Shown here: piece after piece, positions 50,581 to 63,915 of the stretch
Layout of the letters: each line of letters starts with the position of its first letter
How positions within the stretch are numbered: the stretch's first letter is position 1
DNA from: Pseudomonas putida
GTDB taxonomy: Bacteria; Pseudomonadota; Gammaproteobacteria; Pseudomonadales; Pseudomonadaceae
Reading direction: 5' to 3'
NCBI RefSeq assembly: GCF_016406145.1
Contig: NZ_CP066306.1
Span: 2,914,001 to 2,978,000 of the forward strand
Length of the DNA: 64,000 nt
Program-made: the position numbers and the translations under genes
The notes under the pieces: model-generated
Database searches by the model: none
The model's input: only the letters and a program-made list of their open reading frames with translations
What the model was told of the DNA's origin: nothing

Positions 50581-51531
50581 ATGACTGACATAGAGCGCTA
50601 CGTCCGCGCCGCCACCCGTGACAACACCCGGCGCAGCTATCAGGCTGCCATCGAGCATTTCGAAGCCCACTGGGGCGGTTTTCTCCCGGCCACTGCCGAC
50701 AGCATTGCCCGCTACCTGGCCGATCACGCCGGGCAGCATGCGGTCAGCACCCTGCGCCAACGCCTTGCGGCCCTCAGCCAATGGCACATCAGCCAAGGCT
50801 TCCCCGACCCGACCAAGGCCCCGCTGGTACGCCAGGTCCTGCGCGGTATCCGCACCTTGCACCCGACGCCGCCGAAACAGGCCGCACCGCTGCTGTTGCA
50901 ACACCTGCAAACGGCTGTCGAGCATTTTGAAGAAGAGGCCAGGCTGGCCCGCGAGCAGCATGACCTGCCAGCACTGCGCCGCGCCCGGCGTGACACTGCA
51001 CTGTTGCTGCTGGGCTTCTGGCGAGGGTTTCGCGGTGACGAACTGGCGCGCCTGCGCGTGGAGCACATCCAGGCCGAAGCCGGCGTGGGTATCAGCCTGT
51101 TCCTGCCACGCAGCAAAGGTGACCGTGAAGCGCTTGGCGTACAGCACCGCACGCCGGCACTGAAGGCGCTGTGCCCGGTCGCAGCATACCTGCAGTGGCT
51201 CGAAGTGGCGGGCATCGCCCACGGCCCGGTTTTTCGCAAGCTCGACCGCTGGGGCAACCTGAGCGACACAGCGCTCAACAGCAACAGCCTGGTCGGCCTG
51301 TTGCGGCGCATGCTCCAACGGGCAGGCGTGCCGGCGGCGCTGTACACCGGCCATTCTCTGCGGCGCGGTTTTGCCACCTGGGCCACGGCCAACGGCTGGG
51401 AGTTGAAGTCGCTGATGAGTTACGTGGGCTGGAAGGATGCCAAATCGGCGTTGCGCTATATCGACTCGGCTCAGCGTTTTGGCGAACTGGCCGTATTACC
51501 GGCCAGCCAGGGGCAAGTGCTTATTCCTTGA
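50581..51531 (+). CDS. Tyrosine recombinase / site-specific integrase
   Basis: Protein of 316 residues with a SAM-like N-terminal DNA-binding domain (~1-100) and a catalytic domain holding Arg151 ('GFRGDELARL'), Lys179, His258-x-x-Arg261 ('GHSLRRGFATW'), Trp284 and Tyr293 ('SALRYID'). All five classes of catalytic residue are present. No excisionase, phage gene or obvious att repeat is nearby, so its target is unknown. Ends 11 bases inside the converging fusion gene. Confidence 0.9.
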   Translation: MTDIERYVRAATRDNTRRSYQAAIEHFEAHWGGFLPATADSIARYLADHAGQHAVSTLRQRLAALSQWHISQGFPDPTKAPLVRQVLRGIRTLHPTPPKQAAPLLLQHLQTAVEHFEEEARLAREQHDLPALRRARRDTALLLLGFWRGFRGDELARLRVEHIQAEAGVGISLFLPRSKGDREALGVQHRTPALKALCPVAAYLQWLEVAGIAHGPVFRKLDRWGNLSDTALNSNSLVGLLRRMLQRAGVPAALYTGHSLRRGFATWATANGWELKSLMSYVGWKDAKSALRYIDSAQRFGELAVLPASQGQVLIP

Positions 51532-53245
51532 ACGCGTAGCGGGGAATGCCGCCCACTTCCGGGCGAATCGCATACAGGTCGCCAGCGTCCGGGTAGTGGC
51601 GCAGTTCTGTCGGCGACATGCCGACCCGTGCCGTGGTGATGTACAGCGTACCCATGCCATCGCCACCGAAACAGCAACTGGTCGGGCGCGGTACCGGCAT
51701 CACCACCTGCTCGGTCAAATGGCCGTTGCGGTCATAGCGCAGCAGGCAGCTGCCATTGAACTGACACACCCATAACCCGCCTTCACGATCCAGCGCGATA
51801 CCGTCAGGGCGCCCCAGTTCGGCAGGCGTCTCGGCAAACAGGCTGACCTGCTCCAGCCGCCCTTCGGGCAGATACTCGGCACGGTAGATCGAGCGTGCAG
51901 CGGAGTCGACGAAGAAAACGGTCTGGCCATCGGCCGACCAGGCAATGCCATTGGGCAACGCCATGCCGTCATGGATCACCACATCGTGCAGTTCGCCATC
52001 GAAACGCAGCAGCGCACCGGTCTTGCCACTTGGGCCCTCATCCATCAGGCCGGTGACGAAGCGCCCCTGGGGGTCGCAGGTACCGTCATTGAAGCGGTAA
52101 CTCGGGCGATGATGCACCGGCGCCGAGTACTGGCGCACCTTGCAAGACGACATATCCAGAATGGCAACGCTGGCATCTTCGGTGAAGATCAGGTTGCCCT
52201 GGTCGGTCAGTGCCAACGCACCGATACGTGCAGCGGATTCATAAAGGTTCTCGACCTCGCCATCCGGTAACAGCCGGTGAATCCGCCCGCCGGTAATATC
52301 GATGAAATACAACGCACCCGTGCGCGCATCCCACACAGGGCTTTCACCAAGGTCGGCACGGGTGTTGGCGACCTTGGTCGGTACGTAATGACATTCCTTG
52401 ATGAGGCTCCAGCGTTCAGCCACTTCGCCCAGGCTCGAAGCCTCTACCCGCGCCAGGTCACGCGGGTAGCTCACGCCGCTGTTCTCGCTGAAGCGCGTGG
52501 CGGTGAACTGGCCATTGCTGGCACGCAGGATGTACCCGGTATCCCGGCAAAGCGCACTGGCCAGGTACAGCACGCCCGGTGTCACCCATTGCGGCTTGAG
52601 TTCTTCCGGCGGCTGGGTCACGCCCCACATACGGGTTTTGGCCACTGGCGAGACCGCATTGACCAGGATGCCGTGTTCCAGCCCTTCCATGCTCAATGCG
52701 TTCATGATGCCCACCTGGGCCATCTTGCCCGCCGAGTACGCGACCAGGCCTGGCTGGGCATAGCGCTGATACATGGCGCGGTCCGAGGTGGTGAGGACTA
52801 TGCGTGGTGCCTCGGCTTGCTTGAGGTGCTTCCAGGCATGCTTGGCGAGCCACACCGGGGCGTGCACGCTGATGCCCAGTGCGCGATCGAGAAACGCCTG
52901 TTCCTGTGTCTCGATGCCTTGGTAATCGACCCAGCCGGCGTTGTGGATGAGAATATCCAGCGCGCCGAAATGCGCGATGGCCAGTTCCACCAGTTCTCGG
53001 CATTCTTCTTCGTTTTCCAGGTGGCCGACATGAGCGACCACATCAAAACCCTGGCCCCGCAGGGTTTCGAGTGCGACGCTGACCGCCGCCGGGTTCTGAC
53101 CTTCGCCCGAGCGATCAGTGCCCAGGTCGCTGATGACTACCCGCGCTCCCCGCGCGGCCAGCGCCATGGCGTAATCCAGGCCCAGGCCCTGGGCGGCACC
53201 GGTGACGATGGCGACTTTATCTTTGAATGGGTCTGTGCTTGGCAT
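51521..53245 (-). CDS. SDR dehydrogenase fused to SMP-30/gluconolactonase-like lactonase
   Basis: Single chain of 574 residues. Residues ~8-250 are a short-chain dehydrogenase: 'TGAAQGLGLDYA' NAD site, 'NAG' and the Tyr170-x-x-x-Lys174 pair ('YSAGK'). Residues ~298-574 are an SMP-30 beta-propeller: 'LGESPVWDARTGALYFID' metal Glu, 'RFNDGTCDPQGRFVTG', 'LPNGIAWSADG' and 'RPDGIALDREGGLWV'. A sugar-like oxidation to a lactone followed by hydrolysis would fit, but the substrate is unknown. Divergent from the LysR gene. Confidence 0.9.
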   Translation of the reverse strand: MPSTDPFKDKVAIVTGAAQGLGLDYAMALAARGARVVISDLGTDRSGEGQNPAAVSVALETLRGQGFDVVAHVGHLENEEECRELVELAIAHFGALDILIHNAGWVDYQGIETQEQAFLDRALGISVHAPVWLAKHAWKHLKQAEAPRIVLTTSDRAMYQRYAQPGLVAYSAGKMAQVGIMNALSMEGLEHGILVNAVSPVAKTRMWGVTQPPEELKPQWVTPGVLYLASALCRDTGYILRASNGQFTATRFSENSGVSYPRDLARVEASSLGEVAERWSLIKECHYVPTKVANTRADLGESPVWDARTGALYFIDITGGRIHRLLPDGEVENLYESAARIGALALTDQGNLIFTEDASVAILDMSSCKVRQYSAPVHHRPSYRFNDGTCDPQGRFVTGLMDEGPSGKTGALLRFDGELHDVVIHDGMALPNGIAWSADGQTVFFVDSAARSIYRAEYLPEGRLEQVSLFAETPAELGRPDGIALDREGGLWVCQFNGSCLLRYDRNGHLTEQVVMPVPRPTSCCFGGDGMGTLYITTARVGMSPTELRHYPDAGDLYAIRPEVGGIPRYAFKE

Positions 53246-53341: not shown

Positions 53342-53515
53342 CCTGAGACCCGCCACCTTGCGATGCACCCCGACCCTTAGTGTCAAGCCCCGGATGAGCC
53401 GTTTACAGCAGAGGCTTTGTCGCCGCGATGCCACGCACTATCATGGCCGCCTTGCACGGTCGGCCGCCGGAGAACGCTTTCCCGGCCCCCGTTCGACTCG
53501 ATGAAGGAACGTAGA

Positions 53516-54487
53516 ATGATCGAGACACGTTTGCTCAGGCAGTTCATTGCCGTGGCCGAGGAGCTGCACTTTCACAAGGCAGCCATCCGCCTGCACATGG
53601 CACAGCCGCCCCTGAGCCAGGCGATCAACCGACTCGAAGAGAAGCTGGGCTTCAGCCTGTTCCTGCGCAACAAGCGCGGGGTCAAGCTCACCGCCGCGGG
53701 CATGGCCTTCCTGGAAACCGCCTACCGTACCCTCAAGGAGTTGGAACAAGGCATCGAATACGCCCGCAACGTGTCCGAGGGCATCTGCGGCAAGCTGACC
53801 ATCACTGCCATTTCCATCGCTTACTACGAGTCGCTGCTCAATACCCTGAAGAAATTCCGCGAAATCTACCCGAACGTGCGGCTGACCATTCGCGAAATGC
53901 CTTCGGCCTCCCAGGCCAAGGCGTTGATGGCCGGCGAAGCGGACATCGGCTTCATGCGCAAGCTGCCGATGCCACCAGACACCATCGAATCGAGGTTGCT
54001 GCTCAATGAGCAGATCGTCATGGCCCTACCCGCCAACCACGCCAAGGCGCATCAGCCTATGGTCGACCTGCGGGATTTTGCCGAAGAGGACTTCGTATTC
54101 ACCCCGCAGGCGCTTGGCAGCGGCTACCACAGCCAGTTGATTGCGTTGTGCGAATCGGCCGGTTTCTACCCCAAAGTGGTGCAGGAAGCGGCGCAGATCC
54201 ACACCCTGATCGGGCTGGTAGCTTGCGGTTTCGGCGTTGCCCTGGTGCCTGAATCGATTGCCTACTCGACGCTGCGCGAGCGCGTGCAGTTTCGCCCTAT
54301 CCGACCGATCAAGGACCAGCCAACGCCGACCATGGGGCTGTATATGAACTGGAACACACAGAACGCCTCTCCAGCCTTGGGCAGTTTCATATCCATGCTC
54401 GACCTGGGGGCGCCTCGGCGATTTGTCGACACCATCCAGCAACCGTTGATTCTGGATGGCAGCGACAAGCACGAACTACACCGCTAA
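53516..54487 (+). CDS. LysR-family transcriptional regulator
   Basis: Protein of 323 residues with the N-terminal winged HTH ('LRQFIAVAEELHFHKAAIRL', 'QPPLSQAINRLEEKLG') and a substrate-binding domain. AAGGA precedes ATG 53,516, which is preferred over 53,501. It faces the SDR-lactonase gene across a palindrome and its 3' end overlaps the 3' end of asnB by 12 bases. It may control the fusion gene; control of the seven-gene operon is possible but unsupported. Confidence 0.9.
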   Translation: MIETRLLRQFIAVAEELHFHKAAIRLHMAQPPLSQAINRLEEKLGFSLFLRNKRGVKLTAAGMAFLETAYRTLKELEQGIEYARNVSEGICGKLTITAISIAYYESLLNTLKKFREIYPNVRLTIREMPSASQAKALMAGEADIGFMRKLPMPPDTIESRLLLNEQIVMALPANHAKAHQPMVDLRDFAEEDFVFTPQALGSGYHSQLIALCESAGFYPKVVQEAAQIHTLIGLVACGFGVALVPESIAYSTLRERVQFRPIRPIKDQPTPTMGLYMNWNTQNASPALGSFISMLDLGAPRRFVDTIQQPLILDGSDKHELHR

Positions 54488-56311
54488 GCGATATTCGCGC
54501 AGCCAGGCATCCAGTGCCAGAGCGGTCTCCAGGTTGTTACGGCGCAACTGTGAATTGAAATACCCCTCGGGCTGGCGCAGCTCAGCGCCCAGCCGAACAC
54601 GGTCGATCACCTGGAACACCGGGCTGCCCGCCTGCTCCAGCAGGTGCCGGACGCGCTCACGCAGGAACCGTTCATAAGCAAGGTTCGCCGAGGTCGGATA
54701 AGGGCTCTTGCGTCGCTGTAGTACGGCCGCTGGCAGGATATCGGCGCAGGCCTGCTTGAGCAGCCACTTCTCCACACCGTCCTTGCCCTTCATCGACCAC
54801 GGCACGTTGTACACGTACTCGACCAGCTCATGGTCGGTGAACGGCACGCGTACTTCCAGGCTGGCAGCCATGCTCAGGCGGTCCTTGCGGTCGAGCAGAA
54901 TCGGCAGCCAGCGCTGCAGGTGCATGTGGCAGATCTCACGCATGCGCCGCTCTTGCGGGTTGTCGCCCGGCAAATGCTCGACGCTGTCTAGCGCCTGGTG
55001 ATAGCAACCGTCCTGGTAGCTGGCAAAGTCGCACAGCCGGTTAAACTCCGGGTTGATCAGCTCGGGCTGCAGCAACTGCATGCGCGAAAGCCACGGAAAA
55101 CGCTGCGCCGCCAGCGCCTGCGGGTCGCGGAACCAGGCGTAGCCGCCGAACACTTCGTCTGCTGCCTCGCCGGAAATGGCCACTGTTGAATGGCGGCCGA
55201 TGGCCTTGAACAGTAAGTACAACGAGGTGTCCACATCGCCGAAGGTGGCCGCCGAGTCATTGGCCCGGTACACCGCGCTGCGCGCAGGGTCGGCCACCAG
55301 TTCGCCGTTGTCGATGAGGATGGTCTGGTGATGGCTGCCAATGTGCTCGGCAGCTGCCAGCGCGTAGGGCTCATCGCGCTCCGGGCGGAAGGTATCGCTC
55401 TGGAACTGCTCGGCCTGGCCGATGAAGTCCACCGAAAACGAATTGACCCTACCCCCCTGCTCTGCCGTCAGGCGCTGTTGTGCCATGGCCGTGAGGATGG
55501 TCGAGTCCAGCCCGCCGGAGAGCAGCGAACAGACCGGCACATCGGCATGCAACTGCTCGCCCAGCGCGTTGCCGAGCAGCGCTCGGGTGCGCGCCACGGT
55601 GCCGGGCAGGTCATCCTGGTGCTCGCGCCGCTGCAGCTGCCAGTAGCGGCTGAGTTTGGGACGCCCGTTGGGGCGCCAGGACAAGCGATGCCCCGGCGGC
55701 AGTTCGCTGACCCCGTGCAAGGCCGTGCGCGCCGTGCCGCGCGACAGGCTCAGCGCATCCACCAGCCCCACTACATCCAGCGCACTGGCAAACTCCGGGT
55801 GCGCCAGGATTGCCTTGATTTCCGAACCAAACAGCAGCCCCTGCTGGTGGTGGGCGTAGTACAGCGGCTTGACCCCCAGCCGGTCACGTACCAGCAGGAA
55901 GTGGCCGTCGCGCCCGTCGAACACAGCGAAGGCGAACATACCGCTCAAGTGCTCACAGCACTGTTCGCCCCATTCCAGGTAAGCGTGCAGCACCACTTCG
56001 GTGTCGCTGCGGGTATGGAACTGGTGGCCCGCATTGCGCAGGCGCTCACGCAGTGCGTCGTGGTTGTAGACCTCGCCGGTATAGATCAGCGCGACTTCCT
56101 CGCCGCTGGCGCAGCGGTAAGTCATCGGCTGCACGCCACCACTGAGGTCGATGATCGCCAGCCGCCGGTGGCCCAGCAAGGCATTACAATGCTGCCAGCT
56201 GCCACTGGCATCCGGCCCGCGCAGTGCCAGCGTATCGGTCATGGCGCCGATGACCTGGCCGGCCTGGGTCAGGTTGCGGGTGTAGTCCACCCAGCCTGTG
56301 ATTCCGCACAT
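54476..56311 (-). CDS. asnB: Asparagine synthase (glutamine-hydrolysing), AsnB family
   Basis: Protein of 611 residues: N-terminal Ntn glutaminase with Cys2 ('MCGITGW') and a C-terminal synthetase with the pyrophosphate loop 'SGGLDST' at 265-271. Family members form amides from carboxylates with ATP and glutamine; clustered copies often build natural-product amides rather than asparagine. Last gene of the seven-gene operon; 10 bases after the amidase. Confidence 0.92.
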   Translation of the reverse strand: MCGITGWVDYTRNLTQAGQVIGAMTDTLALRGPDASGSWQHCNALLGHRRLAIIDLSGGVQPMTYRCASGEEVALIYTGEVYNHDALRERLRNAGHQFHTRSDTEVVLHAYLEWGEQCCEHLSGMFAFAVFDGRDGHFLLVRDRLGVKPLYYAHHQQGLLFGSEIKAILAHPEFASALDVVGLVDALSLSRGTARTALHGVSELPPGHRLSWRPNGRPKLSRYWQLQRREHQDDLPGTVARTRALLGNALGEQLHADVPVCSLLSGGLDSTILTAMAQQRLTAEQGGRVNSFSVDFIGQAEQFQSDTFRPERDEPYALAAAEHIGSHHQTILIDNGELVADPARSAVYRANDSAATFGDVDTSLYLLFKAIGRHSTVAISGEAADEVFGGYAWFRDPQALAAQRFPWLSRMQLLQPELINPEFNRLCDFASYQDGCYHQALDSVEHLPGDNPQERRMREICHMHLQRWLPILLDRKDRLSMAASLEVRVPFTDHELVEYVYNVPWSMKGKDGVEKWLLKQACADILPAAVLQRRKSPYPTSANLAYERFLRERVRHLLEQAGSPVFQVIDRVRLGAELRQPEGYFNSQLRRNNLETALALDAWLREYRLAV

Positions 56312-56321
56312 GCTGTGCTCC

Positions 56322-57707
56322 TTACACCTGAAGACGACGGGTTGGAAGTAGACCGGTCAGGGCTTGCAGGCGCTTGGCGATATCCAGCAACTGCCGCTCG
56401 CTGTCACGCCGGCCCATGATCTGCACGGCAAGCGGCGCCTTGCCGTCGGCGCTCAGGCAAATCGGCACGGTAATGGCCGGCAGGCCGCTGAAACTGGCCA
56501 GCGGGGTAAAGCTGATCTTCTGCTCATAGCCTTCGTCTGCCGGGGACGGGATGGTCGAGTCCCCTGGCTGCGGGTTGCGCCGGTCGAATGGCCGGTTGGG
56601 GTCCATGGGGAACACCACGAAATCCACTTGGGCGTTGTCGAACCAGGCGTCGATACCCGAACGGATGTTGTCCATGCGCTGGTGGATGCGCCGGTAGTCA
56701 GCGTCGCTGACGCCCTCACCCACTTTAAGGGCGCTGAGTGTCGACCAGTGCAGCTCGCAGTCAAAGCGCCGTGCCCAGGCAGCCGAGGCCAGCCACGCAT
56801 CCCGTGCGCACAGTTGCCAGGCGTCGCCACGGCAGGCCCACAGGTCCGGCATGGCGACTTCGGCGGGCGCCATGTCCAGGTCTGCCAGTGCGCTGCGTGC
56901 CTGGCCCAGCATGTCGAGCATGGCCGCACTGGTCAGCGCCGGGTCCAGCGCGTGCTCCAGCATGGCGACCCGATAGCGCTCTTTGAGTGGCTGTTGCTGG
57001 CCGAGCAGTGGCTCCAGGCCCAGCAACGGGAACAGCAGGTCGAGGTCGTCGGCGCTGCGGGCGACCCAGCCCAGTGCGTCCATGCGCGGTGACAACGGAA
57101 ACACTCCGGCCAGGCTTTCGGCCTTCTGGGTCATGCGCAGGCCGACCATACCGCAGTGCGAGGCCGGCCAGCGCACCGAGCCAAGTACATCGGTGCCCAA
57201 CGAGATATCGCAGAGCCCTGCCGCCACCGACACCGCCGAGCCGGTACTGGAGCCAGACGGATCGATGCTCGGGAAGCGCGGGTTACGGCACCCGGCGCCA
57301 AAGGCAATGTTCAGCTCGGTAGTGGCGACCTTGCAGGTCAGGGCGATGCGCGGGTCGAGGAAGCTCAGCGCCTCGGCGCTGCGCTGGGGGTAGTGGCGGT
57401 AGCTGCGCAAGCCCAGGCGGGTCGGCAAGCCTTGCACGTCGACAGTGTCCTTCACCCCCAGGCGGTACCACGGTGCCTCGACCTCACGGGTGCTGGTCAG
57501 GCAGCGGTAGTGGCTGTCGGCATGCACGGACCATTGTGCGTACTGCGCTGCCCAGTCTGCGGCCATGGCGGGGTTGCGCTGCAGTAGTTCATGGCGTTTG
57601 CGCAGGCTCAGACCGAGGTATTCGGGCTGCTCGCGGCCGTGGGTGGCGTCGGCGCCGCAGTTACTGAGGTAGTGGGCGATGGCATCTTGAGTGTCAACGT
57701 GGTTCAT
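56322..57707 (-). CDS. Amidase-signature family enzyme
   Basis: Protein of 461 residues with the amidase triad: Lys86 in 'GVKDTVDV', cis-Ser154 in 'SGSSTGSAVS' and nucleophile Ser177 in 'GTDVLGSVRWPAS'. Substitutions in the usually GTDTGGS-type motif suggest an unusual acyl pocket. ATGA overlap with the adenylation gene. It could hydrolyse an amide, or release or transfer the ACP-bound product; that is inference. Confidence 0.88.
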   Translation of the reverse strand: MNHVDTQDAIAHYLSNCGADATHGREQPEYLGLSLRKRHELLQRNPAMAADWAAQYAQWSVHADSHYRCLTSTREVEAPWYRLGVKDTVDVQGLPTRLGLRSYRHYPQRSAEALSFLDPRIALTCKVATTELNIAFGAGCRNPRFPSIDPSGSSTGSAVSVAAGLCDISLGTDVLGSVRWPASHCGMVGLRMTQKAESLAGVFPLSPRMDALGWVARSADDLDLLFPLLGLEPLLGQQQPLKERYRVAMLEHALDPALTSAAMLDMLGQARSALADLDMAPAEVAMPDLWACRGDAWQLCARDAWLASAAWARRFDCELHWSTLSALKVGEGVSDADYRRIHQRMDNIRSGIDAWFDNAQVDFVVFPMDPNRPFDRRNPQPGDSTIPSPADEGYEQKISFTPLASFSGLPAITVPICLSADGKAPLAVQIMGRRDSERQLLDIAKRLQALTGLLPTRRLQV

Positions 57708-58690
57708 GGGGTGTATTCCTTGACAGAAGTGGAAGCCGCCCACGGCAGAGGCTTGCCGGTGGCGGACAAAGGCAGGTCGGTGACACGGCGTACCGCAACC
57801 GGCCATGGATGGCCTGGCGGTAGTTGGCGAAATGCCTCCAACACCGCGTGCTCGGTGAGGGTGTCGCAGCTGTACAGCACCTCGAACGCTTCGCCGCGCA
57901 GCGCATCGGCCACGGCAACGCAGGCCAGCTTGGGGCAATTCAGGCGTTGAGCTAGATCACTTGCCAAACGGGCCAGGTCGACGCGCAGCCCATTGACCTT
58001 GATCAGGCTGCTGGCCCGCCCCAGCCACTGGAAGCGCTGTTCGTCCAACACCAATACCTGGTCATCGCAGCAATGCGTGGCTGCTGCGTGTGCCTGGCAC
58101 GGCTGGCGGGCGATGCGCGGGCTGGCCACGTGCAGCGCACAGGGCTGGCCCGGGGGGCTGAGCAGGGTCACATCGCTCAGCAGGGTCCAGGGCTGCTCTG
58201 CATCACTGTGAGCGTCCAGCTCGCGGTAAGCCATGGCCCCGGTTTCGGTGGAACCGAGCAGTTCGACGAAACGCACCTGTGGCCCGGCATGGCGCTGCAC
58301 CGTGGCCAGAGCCCCCGGCGGCAGCAACGAGGCGCTGTGCACCACCAGTACCGCACGCCGGGCGCTCAGCCGGGCCAGCAGCGCCGGCAGCACGCGCCAG
58401 GTACTGGCAATGGCGAGAATCACGCACGGACCTTCCCCGTCGAGCGTTGGCATGCGTTGCTGCTCCAGCGAGCAGGCGTGCAACTGGGCGTTCAAAACCC
58501 GCGACCCGACCTCGCCAAGGATCATGCCGTAGCTGTGGCTGACCGGCGCGAACGAGAAAATCTCCCGAGCATCGGGCGCCCAACGGCCGAGAATCAGGGC
58601 CGCCTCGTGCTCCATCTGCACCTGGCTACGCAGCCATTGCCGGGGCGCACCGGTTGAGCCGGAGGTGGTAAACAGATGCTCGGCGTTCAC
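57704..58690 (-). CDS. Short AMP-binding (adenylation-type) protein
   Basis: Protein of 328 residues that begins directly at the ANL P-loop ('FTTSGSTGAPRQW') and ends with the A10-like lysine ('LPLSATGKPLPW'). The ~150 residues that normally precede the P-loop are absent, and the GTG start overlaps the ACP stop, so this is the natural length. It has 'LLGSTETGAMAY' as the adenylate-binding motif. It may load the ACP, alone or with the PaaK-like protein. Confidence 0.82.
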   Translation of the reverse strand: MNAEHLFTTSGSTGAPRQWLRSQVQMEHEAALILGRWAPDAREIFSFAPVSHSYGMILGEVGSRVLNAQLHACSLEQQRMPTLDGEGPCVILAIASTWRVLPALLARLSARRAVLVVHSASLLPPGALATVQRHAGPQVRFVELLGSTETGAMAYRELDAHSDAEQPWTLLSDVTLLSPPGQPCALHVASPRIARQPCQAHAAATHCCDDQVLVLDEQRFQWLGRASSLIKVNGLRVDLARLASDLAQRLNCPKLACVAVADALRGEAFEVLYSCDTLTEHAVLEAFRQLPPGHPWPVAVRRVTDLPLSATGKPLPWAASTSVKEYTP

Positions 58691-58971
58691 TCGGTGGCCT
58701 GCAGGGTCAGTTGATCTTCCAGTTTTTGCCCGACGAATTGCTCCATCTTTTCCAGGGTTTCGAACCAGAAGCGCACATCGTCGCTGAGGTAGTCCACTTC
58801 GATGTCGAAGCAGCCTTCGATGGCGGTGATCACTTCCACAGCCATGAGGCTATCGAAGCGTTCGCCGAGAAAGTCACGAAAACTGTCGCGTTTATCGATG
58901 GCGTCGACGTGCTCGCCAAGCAGCTGGCCGAGGGTTTGGCGGATACGCTGTTCAATGCTGAGGTGATTCAC
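58687..58971 (-). CDS. Acyl carrier protein
   Basis: Carrier of 94 residues with the phosphopantetheine site Ser41 in 'RFDSLMAVEVI' and helix-rich flanks. A GTG start overlaps the tautomerase stop. The C-terminal tail is longer than in fatty-acid ACPs. Its own adenylation gene follows immediately. A dedicated carrier is the strongest hint of a biosynthetic pathway here. Confidence 0.88.
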   Translation of the reverse strand: MNHLSIEQRIRQTLGQLLGEHVDAIDKRDSFRDFLGERFDSLMAVEVITAIEGCFDIEVDYLSDDVRFWFETLEKMEQFVGQKLEDQLTLQATE

Positions 58972-59375
58972 GAGCCGGTCTTTCCTTGTTGATGGGCAGC
59001 GTTGGTCAATTCCGCTCCAGCACTGAAGAACACGTGCTCGGGCAGGATCGGGTCGAAGTGCAGGTAGATGAAGGCATTCGGGTAATGCGTACGCAGGCAG
59101 CCGTGCAGCCCTTCAGCCAGCGCCTGGTGGGCCTGCCGGTCGCGGGCTTGTGACAGGGTGATGCGCACATGGAACTGCGCCGGTGCGCCGTCGCGGTCGG
59201 CAACGGGCATCGGCATGCCGGCGCTGAACACACTGGCCTCAGGTAACGGGTTAAAGAACACCATGCAATGGGCGGTGTCGGCACCCATTTGCTTGAGCTG
59301 GCGGGTAAAGGCAAGTGCCAGTCGCTTGCGCTCCAGCGGTTGCAGCGGTGCACAACAAACAGTGAGGGTGGGCAT
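58968..59375 (-). CDS. Tautomerase-superfamily-like protein (Pro-1)
   Basis: Protein of 135 residues that begins Met-Pro ('MPTLTVCCAPLQPLERKRLA'), the hallmark of the 4-oxalocrotonate tautomerase superfamily, where Pro-1 becomes the N-terminal base after Met removal. Length matches the two-repeat members (about 120-150). Overlaps the ACP gene. The exact reaction is unknown. Confidence 0.65.
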   Translation of the reverse strand: MPTLTVCCAPLQPLERKRLALAFTRQLKQMGADTAHCMVFFNPLPEASVFSAGMPMPVADRDGAPAQFHVRITLSQARDRQAHQALAEGLHGCLRTHYPNAFIYLHFDPILPEHVFFSAGAELTNAAHQQGKTGS

Positions 59376-59384
59376 GGCGGCTCC

Positions 59385-61100
59385 TTACGACAACTGCAAG
59401 CTGGGCAGCTGCTTACGCTGGCCTTGGGCAAAGGCGTCGAGCAGGCGGCCCAGGCAGGTGGACAACGCATCAACCCCTTGCAAGAACAAGGGTGACCAGG
59501 CATGGCCGGCAGCGCCGCGCACCTTGTCGAGGAAAAAGCGCAGGTGGGCAAGGTCCACAGGCAGGCCCAGGTCGGCAGCCAGTGCCACGGCCTGGTAGGT
59601 GCTGAGCAGGTCGGGAATGCGCTGCCCCTGGTTGGCGAAGCCGCCCTGGCGCACTTTGTGCGCGGCCAGTAACCGGGCGGCAGCCTCAGTGACGTCGTTG
59701 CCGATATGGGCCAGGCAGCCCAGGGCCTGCAACCCCGCGCGCAGTGACACTTCGCCACGGGGGAACGTTGCGTAGCCATGAGCTTGCTGGCAGCTGGCGA
59801 CGTAGCGTTCGATGGCCGCCAAGTCCACGCCGCAGTCATCGCCCAATTGCCGCAAGATCGACACGGCTGATGCGGTGGACACCATGTCAGAGCCGCGCCC
59901 CTCCCAGAAACCGAAGCCGCCGTCAGGGTTCTGCAGCGAGGCCAGCCATCGGCCGATCGCCTGGCGGGGCCCTGCCTGGCCATCGAAAGCGCCCGCTGCA
60001 AGGCCCCAATTGGTGCAACGCACCTCGGCACCACGGCCGGGCATGTACATGATCCCAGGCTCGTTGGGCATTTGGCAGCCTTCGATCCAGCGCAGGGCCG
60101 CACCACGCTGCTGCGGCGCCAGGCATTCGCCCAGCACCGCGGCCGCAGTAGTCAGCACGTCGGCGGCGGTATCTGCCCGGCGATAGGAATAGCCGCCTTG
60201 GGGCATCGATAACGTGGCGATGAACGCAGCCACGCCGTCGGCCAGATGCGCCACCGGCTCTCCCAGTGCCTTGAGCGAACCCACTGCGCAGAATGCCGCC
60301 CAGACGTCCTCACCGTCATAACCGGCCCAGCGCACGAAGGCACCGGTCGGACCGCGCAAGGCATCGATCCATTCAGCGCAGCGCTGACGGCCCAGCGGTT
60401 GCGCCTGCAATGCAGCAAGGCTGGCCGTGGCGCGATAGGTCGCCCACAGGCACGGCACAGCCGCCGCTTCGCTGAACCGGAAACCACCGCAATCCATCTG
60501 CTGTGCCTGTAGCCAGCCGATCAGGCGTGGCAGGTTCCAGTGCGGCGCCGGCAAGCCCTGGCGAGCCAGCGCCCGCGCAGCCATCACGCCGTAGAAACAG
60601 GCACGGGTGTCGGCCAGGTTGCGTCGGGCGAAATCAGCCGACCAGCTCAGGCCACCATTGGCACACTGCAACCCCTCGAGCCAGGCATACAACGGCCCGG
60701 TATCCCGCACCTGGCCCTGGCACACTTCGATCAAGGTGCGCAGCGCATAGTGGCTGGCCCACACGTCCGCCGTCTGGCCCTGGCACATGGCATAAGCGTC
60801 GCCATCGAACAGCGTAGCGATCCAGGCCGCTGTTTCGTCGCACTGTTGAACGCCAACGCCCAGGTCGTGCAGGGTTTCGGTGCAATAAAACGTGGCCCAG
60901 GCATCGGAGGGCATCCCCTTGCTCCAGGCAAAGCCGCCATCGCGGTTGCGCCGAGACAGGATGTAGGCCTGTAATACCGGTACATCAACCTGCTCAAGGC
61001 GCTCAACCCAGGCCAGGCTGCGTATGGCCGCATAGGTGCACCACAGATCCGGTTGGCCGTTGCTCAGGCCCTGCCCCAGGGGGAAGCGTGGCGGCGTCAT
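59385..61100 (-). CDS. Prenyltransferase/squalene-oxidase-repeat protein
   Basis: Protein of 571 residues made of repeated alpha-alpha units with 'DGGFAW', 'NGGLSW', 'CGGFRF', 'QGGYSYR' and 'DGGFGFWEG', the repeat of squalene cyclases and prenyltransferase beta subunits, forming an alpha/alpha barrel. I see no DxDD motif of class II terpene cyclases, so the catalytic mode is open. ATGA overlap with the PaaK-like ligase. Confidence 0.75.
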   Translation of the reverse strand: MTPPRFPLGQGLSNGQPDLWCTYAAIRSLAWVERLEQVDVPVLQAYILSRRNRDGGFAWSKGMPSDAWATFYCTETLHDLGVGVQQCDETAAWIATLFDGDAYAMCQGQTADVWASHYALRTLIEVCQGQVRDTGPLYAWLEGLQCANGGLSWSADFARRNLADTRACFYGVMAARALARQGLPAPHWNLPRLIGWLQAQQMDCGGFRFSEAAAVPCLWATYRATASLAALQAQPLGRQRCAEWIDALRGPTGAFVRWAGYDGEDVWAAFCAVGSLKALGEPVAHLADGVAAFIATLSMPQGGYSYRRADTAADVLTTAAAVLGECLAPQQRGAALRWIEGCQMPNEPGIMYMPGRGAEVRCTNWGLAAGAFDGQAGPRQAIGRWLASLQNPDGGFGFWEGRGSDMVSTASAVSILRQLGDDCGVDLAAIERYVASCQQAHGYATFPRGEVSLRAGLQALGCLAHIGNDVTEAAARLLAAHKVRQGGFANQGQRIPDLLSTYQAVALAADLGLPVDLAHLRFFLDKVRGAAGHAWSPLFLQGVDALSTCLGRLLDAFAQGQRKQLPSLQLS

Positions 61101-62413
61101 TGCTGGCCACCGATAAAGCGCAGATTGGTTTTCTTCCAGCTCTTTTGCGAACCGCCGCTCTTGTTCAGCGCCGACAGGTTGTTGACGAACAGCACGCGGC
61201 TCCAGCGCAGCCCCATGTGCTGCTCGGAGCGCTCCAGCAAATGCGCTTGCAGGCGTGCTTCCTGGCTGCTGTCCCAGACAACGTCACGCTCGAGGATCAG
61301 CGCGGCGCTGTCAGTCTGGCGGTCCACTTCGATGACATAACCTGTGGCATCGCAACTGCCGTATACCACCTCCTCGACCGCGCGGATCTCAAGGCCTACG
61401 CCAGCCACGCGGATGCTGTCGCTGTCACGCCCGTTGATCAGCAGGGTCGGGCTGACGCAGCCTGGCTCCCAAGGCGAGGTGATGGTCACGCTGTCACCGG
61501 TGTCCAGCCGCAACAGCGGGCGTGCATACAGGTTGAGCGGTGTAACCACGAGGCGGCCCGTAAGGCCCTCGGCCGGGGTGACCAGCTTGCCGTCGGGCAA
61601 CAGCAGCTCAAAATAATTGGTAGCCGTGGCCAGGCGCATCTGCAGGTCTTGGCCCACTGCGGCCAGGGTGCCTGTTTCGGTACTGCCGTAGCTGGCATCG
61701 AAAACATCACATTTCCACCAGCGCGCCAGGCGGTCACGCAACGGCTGGGTGTTGACCTCGCCAAGCAGCATGATCGAGCGCACCGACTTGGCGAAGGCGT
61801 GCAGCAATTCGCGCTGTTTCAGGTAGCGGGTCAACTGCACCAGCACCCCGGGGGCAATGAACAGGACCGTAGGCCGATACGTGTCGAAGGTCTTGCACAC
61901 CCGCTCCCAGTCGGTAATACCGGTGGTGAAGGGATAGAGGCGCACGTGGGAAACGTCCAGGTACTCGCAGACGTTGGCGATCAGGTCGCCCACCGGCACG
62001 ATGTCCGATGGCATCAGGTTGGCTACCCGCGAACCCGGGCGCAGCACTGCCCGCCAATGGCTTGCGACACTGACGGCATTCCAGATGATGTCTTCTTTCA
62101 AACGCGGGGTCGGGGTCGGCTCGCCAGTCGTGCCGGTGGTGGCGTAATACTTGGCCGCCTCGCCGAGTTCTACAGTGCAGAACTCAAGCGGTTGGCCTTT
62201 GAGCAATGCCTTGGCGGTTGCGGGCAACTGCTGGAAGGCCGTGAAACTGTAGGGACCTATGTTTGCGTAATGGGCGCTGTGTTGTGCTCGCGTCCAAACT
62301 GCTTGCAACTTGCGTTCATAAAATGCGGCGCTGGGGACATGCCCCGCCTGCAGTTGAAGCTCGCGTTCCGCGGCCTGCAGTACGCCATAATCCTGGTCGC
62401 TATGAACTAACAT
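61097..62413 (-). CDS. PaaK/CapK-like adenylate-forming ligase
   Basis: Protein of 438 residues with the P-loop 'YYATTGTTGEPTPTPRLK', the adenylate motif 'DASYGSTETG' and hinge/ribose region 'ARPLLRLDTGDSVTI'. It is related to PaaK at 1,535-2,854 but clearly divergent. First gene of the seven-gene minus-strand operon. It likely activates a carboxylate for transfer to CoA or the ACP; substrate unknown. Confidence 0.85.
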   Translation of the reverse strand: MLVHSDQDYGVLQAAERELQLQAGHVPSAAFYERKLQAVWTRAQHSAHYANIGPYSFTAFQQLPATAKALLKGQPLEFCTVELGEAAKYYATTGTTGEPTPTPRLKEDIIWNAVSVASHWRAVLRPGSRVANLMPSDIVPVGDLIANVCEYLDVSHVRLYPFTTGITDWERVCKTFDTYRPTVLFIAPGVLVQLTRYLKQRELLHAFAKSVRSIMLLGEVNTQPLRDRLARWWKCDVFDASYGSTETGTLAAVGQDLQMRLATATNYFELLLPDGKLVTPAEGLTGRLVVTPLNLYARPLLRLDTGDSVTITSPWEPGCVSPTLLINGRDSDSIRVAGVGLEIRAVEEVVYGSCDATGYVIEVDRQTDSAALILERDVVWDSSQEARLQAHLLERSEQHMGLRWSRVLFVNNLSALNKSGGSQKSWKKTNLRFIGGQQ

Positions 62414-62775: not shown

Positions 62776-63915
62776 TTAGCGCCCCTGGGCGCAACGCCAT
62801 ACCCGCGCAATATCACTGGCCCGGGCCTGCAACAAGTGCGCCGCATCGGCGCAGGCCTGCTCCAGGGTCGTCGGCCCGCTGGCAAGGGCGAATGCCGCAT
62901 CGATGCCATGCGCGTACAGTTGCTGATAGCCTTCACCCAAGGTACCCGCCAGCACCACCACCGGCACCCCATGGCGCTTGGCGACCCGCGCCACGCCCAT
63001 CGGCGTCTTGCCCCTCAGGGTCTGGGCATCGAAGCGGCCCTCACCAGTAATCACAAGGTCGGCACCTTTCACCAACGCATCGAGGCCGGCCAACTCCGCC
63101 ACCACTTCCACGCCCGGTCGGAACCGCGCCTCCATGAAGGCCTTGGCGGCAAAGCCCATGCCGCCGGCAGCGCCACACCCTGGCAGTTCTCTCACGTCTT
63201 GGCCCAGCACCTGCGCACAATGGTCGGCAAAGTGGCCCAGCGCTTTGTCCAGGGCCTGGACCTGCGCGGGGCTGGCACCTTTTTGTGGCCCGAAGATCGC
63301 CGAAGCACCATTGGGCCCACACAGGGGATTGTCGACGTCGGCCGCCACTTCGAACCGGACCTGCGCCAGGCGAGGGTCCAGGCCGCTGACATCGATGCGT
63401 GCCAGCCCGGCCAGGGCCAAGCCGCCCTCTTCCAGCGGCTGGCCATCGGTGTCCAGCAAACGCAGGCCTAGGGCACGCAGCATGCCGCTGCCGCCATCGT
63501 TGGTAGCACTGCCGCCGATTGCCAGAACAATGCGCTGTGCCCCTGCGCTGAGCGCGGCGTTGATCAGCTCGCCAGTGCCCCAGGTGCTGCTGCGGCAGGC
63601 ATCACGCTGCGCACTCGGCACCAGCTGGATACCACTGGCCTGGGCCATCTCGATGATCGCCGTACGGCTGTCGGCCAGCCAGCCCCAACCGGCCTGCACC
63701 GGCTGGCTCAGTGGCCCGCGAACGGTCTGCCGGCGCAGCTCGCCGTGGCTGGCAGCGACAATCGCCTCCATGGTGCCTTCGCCGCCATCGGCCATGGGGC
63801 ACTCGAGCAGCTCAGCGCTAGGCAGCGCCTCGGCCAGGCCGGCGGCGATGGCACGGGCGACACCGGCAGCATCAAGGCTGTCTTTGAACGAGTCGGGGGC
63901 GATGACGATCTTCAT
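62776..63915 (-). CDS. Glycerate kinase
   Basis: Protein of 379 residues of the GarK/GlxK family: 'MKIVIAPDSFKDSLDA', 'CPMADGGEGTMEAI', 'IGGSATNDGGSGML' and 'DLVITGEGRFDAQTLRGKTP'. It phosphorylates D-glycerate, feeding glycolate/glyoxylate or tartronate semialdehyde carbon into glycolysis. The partner genes, such as glxR or gcl, are not in the window. The last 85 bases of the window hold only its upstream region. Confidence 0.93.
   Translation of the reverse strand: MKIVIAPDSFKDSLDAAGVARAIAAGLAEALPSAELLECPMADGGEGTMEAIVAASHGELRRQTVRGPLSQPVQAGWGWLADSRTAIIEMAQASGIQLVPSAQRDACRSSTWGTGELINAALSAGAQRIVLAIGGSATNDGGSGMLRALGLRLLDTDGQPLEEGGLALAGLARIDVSGLDPRLAQVRFEVAADVDNPLCGPNGASAIFGPQKGASPAQVQALDKALGHFADHCAQVLGQDVRELPGCGAAGGMGFAAKAFMEARFRPGVEVVAELAGLDALVKGADLVITGEGRFDAQTLRGKTPMGVARVAKRHGVPVVVLAGTLGEGYQQLYAHGIDAAFALASGPTTLEQACADAAHLLQARASDIARVWRCAQGR

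Follow-up and report, generated by a model that had tools for sequence, protein, structure and literature searches.

What does an operon make that encodes adenylating enzymes and an acyl carrier protein (ACP) with neither a polyketide synthase (PKS) nor a nonribosomal peptide synthetase (NRPS)? The question is raised by seven genes at 54476-62413 of a 64,000-nt stretch of Pseudomonas putida DNA (GCF_016406145.1, NZ_CP066306.1, positions 2,914,001 to 2,978,000), which we call the window and to which coordinates refer unless another record is named. All seven genes lie on the minus strand with spacings of -4, 9, -4, -4, -4, and 10 nt, which bears out the tight packing (4-base overlaps or gaps of at most 10 bases) claimed in an initial annotation of this DNA. 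That annotation had also seen no PKS or NRPS module, and none of the seven proteins showed a ketosynthase (KS), acyltransferase, or condensation (C) domain; the set has only single AMP-binding and phosphopantetheine-binding (PP-binding) proteins. The cluster belongs among carrier-protein natural-product clusters, and it probably makes a small molecule of the aromatic amide type with none of the usual peptide or polyketide machinery. We give about an even chance to the full proposal, in which the operon is a natural-product cluster built around a conserved five-protein core without PKS or NRPS and runs an aromatic-acid pathway.

A conserved five-gene core

The initial annotation proposed asking whether the genes stay together in other genomes, and the first five do. 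A genome scan for the toroid protein encoded by gene 2 found 54 loci in 53 genomes, a lower bound because the scan used two peptide patterns only. Of these, 14 were Pseudomonas-type loci, two of which come from the single assembly GM84 in pieces, and the remaining 40 came mostly from actinobacteria, plus a Rhizobium, a Hyphomicrobiales metagenome-assembled genome (MAG), and a bog MAG. Among the protein matches listed, full-length relatives of gene 2 with about 50% identity occurred in Streptomyces, Nocardia, and Amycolatopsis. Relatives of the ligase (gene 1), tautomerase (gene 3), ACP (gene 4), and AMP-binding (gene 5) genes were found by tblastn in 53, 51, 50, and 50 of the 54 loci, respectively, in a looser scan whose second round used actinobacterial seeds and covered only sequence within 4 kb of the toroid gene. 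At a strict threshold, the order ligase, toroid, tautomerase, ACP, AMP-binding gene was complete in 45 of the 54 loci, spanning Pseudomonas, actinobacteria, and alphaproteobacteria; this threshold recovered the AMP-binding gene in 47 loci rather than 50 (L049, L062, and L073 were lost) and did not show the toroid of L053. The tautomerase was missing from L033, L061, and L064, all of which end at contig edges, and the ACP and AMP-binding genes were missing from the same three loci and from L066. One further locus (L058) begins within the toroid gene.

Within Pseudomonas, the tautomerase profile matched 11 of 398 genomes, always adjoining the toroid gene. Toroid matches occurred in 25 of the 398, and the 11 strong ones fell in exactly the genomes with the tautomerase; the other 14 were weak and partial.

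Table 1. Positions of the operon genes and adjacent genes in the window
Feature	Position	Strand	Basis or remark
Gene 1, PaaK-like adenylate-forming ligase, 438 aa	61097..62413	-	PF00501 34.4 bits; solved relatives
Gene 2, tandem alpha/alpha-toroid protein ("prenyltransferase/squalene oxidase repeat"), 571 aa	59385..61100	-
Gene 3, fused Pro-1 tautomerase-superfamily protein, 135 aa	58968..59375	-	cis-CaaD/MIF fold
Gene 4, ACP, 94 aa, GTG start	58687..58971	-	PF00550
Gene 5, N-terminally truncated adenylating enzyme, 328 aa, GTG start	57704..58690	-	PF00501 from profile position 169
Gene 6, amidase-signature enzyme, 461 aa	56322..57707	-	PF01425 129 bits
Gene 7, AsnB-like glutamine amidotransferase, 611 aa	54476..56311	-	PF00733 298 bits
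LysR-type regulator, convergent	53501..54487	+	PF00126/PF03466; start set at internal ATG
Glycerate kinase, next gene upstream of gene 1	62776-63915		no DAHP synthase or MFS gene between

Predicted functions of the core proteins

The nearest solved group to gene 1 consists of the NatL2/ClxA-type aryl amide/ester ligases, which took the top four places among 8 distinct sequences when a gene 1 profile (A4) was compared with solved structures. NatL2 and AjiA1 scored 142 bits each and 9s3l 139, with a phenylacetate-CoA ligase next at 87.5; 9s3l, one of those four, is titled "Phenylacetate-CoA ligase" and is likely ClxA. The likeness of gene 1 to this group is low (78 bits to 9s3l and 66 to NatL2). 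In these ligases the catalytic lysine comes from a swapped C-terminal extension; gene 1 has a Lys-rich C-terminal end, kept in 51 of 53 homologues, and the structure matches stop short of it. According to the accessible part of one report, NatL2 and ClxA form an amide or ester, and the benzoxazole pathways of NatL2, ClxA, and AjiA1 join two aminohydroxybenzoates, with no ACP, toroid, or tautomerase described there (PMC12519233). Assignment of gene 1 as the phenylacetate-CoA ligase PaaK itself was rejected (TIGR02155, 49.4 bits against a curated cut-off of 646.3).

Gene 2 has an alpha/alpha-toroid fold, although its second toroid was barely probed by the fold search and may adopt another fold. 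The operon could on this basis belong to a terpenoid or meroterpenoid pathway, with the toroid protein acting as a class-II-like terpene cyclase or an aromatic prenyltransferase, since Foldseek matched it to drimenyl diphosphate synthase and squalene-hopene cyclase and its family keeps many conserved Trp and Arg residues. We consider this very unlikely. The DxDD motif of class II terpene cyclases is missing from all 22 aligned toroid members; the diphosphate-binding residues R232, K235, and Y241 of Rab geranylgeranyltransferase (RabGGTase) align to Glu, Ala, and Ala; and no prenyl-diphosphate synthase family appeared among 30 neighbour proteins scanned with Pfam. We give almost no credence to a role in protein modification, in which the toroid protein would lipidate or prenylate a protein. 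Unlike the beta subunits of protein farnesyl- and geranylgeranyltransferases, gene 2 has a second toroid and lacks the zinc triad: RabGGTase ligands D238, C240, and H290 align to Cys217, Trp219, and Ala268, and the Asp/Cys/His site was not restored in nine other stretches tried, in an alignment that used one RabGGTase segment at low identity. The alpha-subunit family is also absent from the seven operon proteins. What the initial annotation called a "prenyltransferase-repeat" protein is thus unlikely to be a prenylating enzyme, with both the zinc ligands and the DxDD motif absent.

Gene 3 has a fused beta-alpha-beta tautomerase fold and carried no Pfam or NCBIfam name in a library scan of the window proteins. 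All 51 homologues found begin with Met-Pro when their starts are picked by alignment to the window protein, which would leave Pro-1 after Met removal. For the cis-CaaD subgroup, PDB titles name His28, Arg73, Tyr103, and Glu114; in the gene 3 family, H36 and R78 are at least 90% conserved. The phosphopantetheine serine of gene 4 lies in a [YF]DSL motif in 50 of the 50 ACP homologues found. The gene 5 protein starts at its TTSGSTG motif, and its top NCBIfam model was 4-coumarate-CoA ligase, at 48 bits well under the cut-off of 335. A P..H..G motif, typical of aryl/acyl ligases, is kept in 48 of 50 gene 5 homologues; TSG..G (42 of 50) and [ST][AT].GK (30 of 50) were found less often because homologue ends are divergent or uncertainly called.

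Neighboring genes and the candidate substrate

To look for clues to the substrate, we counted gene families about 10 kb to each side of the loci. The families were seeded from these loci, so rare partners are missed, and the counts are raw, without a background rate; they were taken from tblastn because a simple open reading frame (ORF) caller gave antisense ORFs (family f12). A gene for 3-deoxy-D-arabino-heptulosonate-7-phosphate (DAHP) synthase was present in 30 of the 54 loci. Among the 40 non-Pseudomonas loci, 23 had a gene for an ammonia-lyase or aminomutase of the 4-methylideneimidazole-5-one (MIO) type, and 33 had either this gene or a DAHP synthase gene. In five of the 14 Pseudomonas loci, a class-II DAHP synthase gene and a major facilitator superfamily (MFS) gene lie divergently upstream of gene 1, and two more have the MFS gene alone. 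Chance adjacency of the DAHP synthase looks unlikely, since the 5.85-Mb genome of the window has a single class-II DAHP synthase. Together, the DAHP synthase and MIO genes point to a shikimate-derived aromatic substrate.

The MIO proteins kept the ASG triad in all 19 extracted ORFs. That of L040 matched tyrosine aminomutase very closely (663 bits), and the best solved relative of the L054 protein was also tyrosine aminomutase (305 bits). The L074 protein matched best a "putative histidine ammonia-lyase" (191 bits), an entry that is probably a tyrosine ammonia-lyase, with histidine ammonia-lyase at 186. The beta-phenylalanine and beta-tyrosine pathways of andrimid and the enediynes share with these loci an MIO aminomutase, a stand-alone adenylation enzyme, and a free carrier. 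The tyrosine aminomutase match of L040-type neighbours fits this likeness, whereas the MIO gene is absent from the Pseudomonas version; the andrimid and enediyne pathways are not known to include a toroid or tautomerase.

Genes for regulation and export were also found beside the loci. Three MFS transporter families confirmed with Pfam occurred in 7, 6, and 3 loci, and a further family in 22 loci was MFS-like by eye only. A LysR gene followed gene 7 in all 13 Pseudomonas loci that reach that position; in the window the two genes share 12 nt at their stops. The LysR gene is kept even in Pseudomonas brenneri (L032), where the flanks differ, which makes it a probable member of the cluster and its probable regulator. 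Because aromatic degradation typically involves PaaK-like, tautomerase, amidase, and LysR genes, and several hosts are soil or plant pseudomonads, the operon might instead serve the catabolism or detoxification of plant aromatic acids, with a CoA ligase, a tautomerase, and an amidase under a LysR regulator. This is highly improbable in our view: the clusters carry an ACP relative in 50 of 54 loci and an amidotransferase, DAHP synthase genes serve a synthetic pathway and not a degradative one, and the loci include transporter genes and, in four cases, SARP-type (Streptomyces antibiotic regulatory protein) regulators.

Genes 6 and 7 as one of several putative finishing modules

The initial annotation read all seven genes as one pathway unit, a reading that we refine: the conserved unit consists of genes 1-5, and the amidase and AsnB-like genes are an add-on to this core, a variable finishing module. 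Gene 7 was present in 24 of the 54 loci (13 Pseudomonas and 11 actinobacterial), and the amidase accompanied it in 23 of these, in L068 as fragments only; the one locus without it, L061, ends early. Mapped on the toroid tree, the AsnB label changes three times, compared with 16.8 in shuffles (none of 500 as low), so the label tracks lineages. Lineages around S. galbus have a different pair, a second PaaK-like gene and a gene of the aldehyde-dehydrogenase family that is LuxC-like by eye, and further lineages carry ATP-grasp, class-III aminotransferase, and PaaK-like genes. An allene-oxide-cyclase-barrel (dirigent-like) protein, encoded at 15542-16018 in L057, occurs in 8 loci of the S. galbus-type clusters, where its gene adjoins the aldehyde-dehydrogenase-family and second PaaK-like genes and, mostly, the MIO gene.

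The gene 6 translation contains GSSTGS and DVLGSVR motifs, and the D..GS.R pattern was kept in 33 of 35 amidase homologues (35 is the looser-scan count; the strict threshold gave 33). Gene 7 keeps a Cys after Met and an SGGLDS motif, and all 24 gene 7 homologues show an MCGI start and SGG.DS. Its nearest solved relative is the hydroxyamidotransferase TsnB9 (7ylz; 511 bits, 43.1% over 598 residues), compared with 152 bits to E. coli AsnB, and an SGE[AS]ADE segment, SGEAADE in 7ylz, is kept in 24 of 24 homologues. Gene 7 might accordingly transfer hydroxylamine, as TsnB9 does, rather than ammonia, which would make the Pseudomonas product a metal-binding aryl hydroxamic acid. We regard this as unlikely. 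No N-hydroxylase gene or PKS domain was found in the operon, which is the region searched, in contrast to TsnB9, which belongs to the trichostatin A pathway. The ordinary asparagine-synthase model gives gene 7 537 bits against a cut-off of 267, and the nearest solved structure says little because only nine distinct solved sequences match gene 7. Amide formation, as in our proposal, has a described counterpart: the source that names 7YLZ TsnB9 presents SoaC, a sorbamide synthetase of AsnB type, as a dedicated amide synthetase (PMC13284220). As described there, SoaC resembles gene 7 in being AsnB-type and amidating a free unsaturated acid within a metabolite cluster, but it is fungal and tied to a PKS (PMC13284220).

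Proposed pathway

From the observed gene content, spacing, conservation, folds, motifs, and neighbours, we infer a substrate, a step order, every reaction, and a product. Gene 5 would activate an aromatic acid, most likely of the hydroxycinnamate or hydroxybenzoate type from the shikimate pathway, and attach it to the ACP (gene 4). Genes 3 (tautomerase fold) and 2 (tandem toroid) may then remodel or condense the tethered acyl group, and Pro-1 of gene 3 could drive addition to, or isomerization of, a conjugated double bond. Gene 1, like NatL2 and ClxA, is predicted to adenylate a carboxylate and form an amide or ester. For the Pseudomonas version we propose that gene 7 amidates a free carboxylate with nitrogen taken from glutamine and that gene 6 cleaves an amide bond, perhaps stripping a protecting or handle group. 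We infer an acyl amide as the product, which the initial annotation had read as an acyl amide or related small molecule.

A broader interpretation, which we hold tentatively and at somewhat less than even probability, is that these loci represent a third kind of carrier-protein assembly core besides PKS and NRPS, in which toroid and Pro-1 tautomerase-fold enzymes form bonds on an ACP-bound aromatic acid and hosts vary the finishing modules (AsnB with amidase, aldehyde-dehydrogenase-family with second PaaK-like, or ATP-grasp with aminotransferase). If so, the varied modules would imply a large unexplored product family.

Several observations weigh against the aromatic-acid proposal. Neither a DAHP synthase gene nor an MIO gene accompanies the cluster in the window, and the one class-II DAHP synthase and one MIO protein of this genome are both encoded far from it. 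The 11 Pseudomonas genomes that carry the cluster gave 29 MIO matches, none of them adjoining it, and a second class-II DAHP synthase beside the cluster is missing in six of the 11. Both genes are missing from seven of the 40 non-Pseudomonas loci; contig ends truncate three of these seven (L055, L061, and L064). The L066 locus of Kutzneria sp. CA-103260 has the ligase, the toroid, and an inverted tautomerase gene before gene 1, with no ACP or AMP-binding gene in the stretch; it is a reduced or rearranged cassette. Our searches of the open-access literature turned up no reaction for either the toroid or the tautomerase family, and an amide synthetase side by side with an amidase is hard to rationalize. 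The aromatic substrate is least certain in Pseudomonas, because the window's cluster lacks both marker genes and MIO genes never adjoin the cluster there. This substrate, the toroid reaction, and the reason that amide synthetase and amidase travel together are the least secure parts of the proposal.

Relation to characterized clusters

No characterized matching cluster was found in the open-access literature, protein-database names, or annotated plasmid records (MIBiG was outside the comparison). No named pathway gene appeared among the toroid matches listed (the best 120 of 310 and the best 120 of 271) or among all 68 tautomerase matches, many of which are unnamed in both sets. Typical names were "prenyltransferase/squalene oxidase repeat-containing protein" or "hypothetical protein," with one "Phenylpyruvate tautomerase PptA." At least 53 genomes, from actinobacteria, pseudomonads, and alphaproteobacteria, carry the core, yet two of its proteins are those for which we found no reported reaction. 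Mining tools easily overlook clusters without KS or C domains, and a whole product family may go unseen for this reason. Heterologous expression and reconstitution are practical because the Pseudomonas version is compact, with seven closely spaced genes in 8 kb.

Plasmid-borne copies and flanking genes

The core was also found on three Rhizobium rhizogenes plasmids, including pAtK84c of strain K84, with GNAT, amidase, MFS, LysR, and ATP-grasp genes alongside. Its presence on these plasmids may point to a function in competition or in association with plants. On pAtK84c (CP000631.1), positions 6586-19319 of L078 hold the complete core with GNAT, amidase, transporter, regulator, and "biotin carboxylase" (ATP-grasp-type) genes, and transposase genes flank this cassette on both sides; K84 is a crown-gall biocontrol strain. 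An annotated indigoidine synthase and a phosphopantetheinyl transferase lie about 17-25 kb from the cassette (L080, 3330-11863, CP000631.1). We claim no link between the cassette and agrocin 434, since the latter is a cytidine nucleoside and the plasmid assigned to it, pAtK84a, may or may not be pAtK84c. The name pAtK84a is that of the K84 plasmid on which a review places agrocin 434 (PMC4231840). Megablast found nothing in the plasmid collection to match the 9.1-kb region, the toroid had no match in phages, and a 4-kb part of the region had none in E. coli.

Some public names of matching genomes appear doubtful. "Pantoea sp. Ap-967" (L024/G134) coincides in position with a genome placed in Pseudomonas, and its name is probably wrong; the name Citrobacter freundii on P0025 and P0257 may be a similar misnaming.

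Beyond the LysR gene and divergent from it, the window encodes a fused short-chain dehydrogenase/SMP-30 (gluconolactonase-like) protein at 51521-53245. This family occupies the same position in 12 Pseudomonas loci and is not beside the LysR gene in P. brenneri L032. An ORF that is tyrosine-recombinase/integrase-like by eye lies at 50581-51531, about 3 kb from gene 7.

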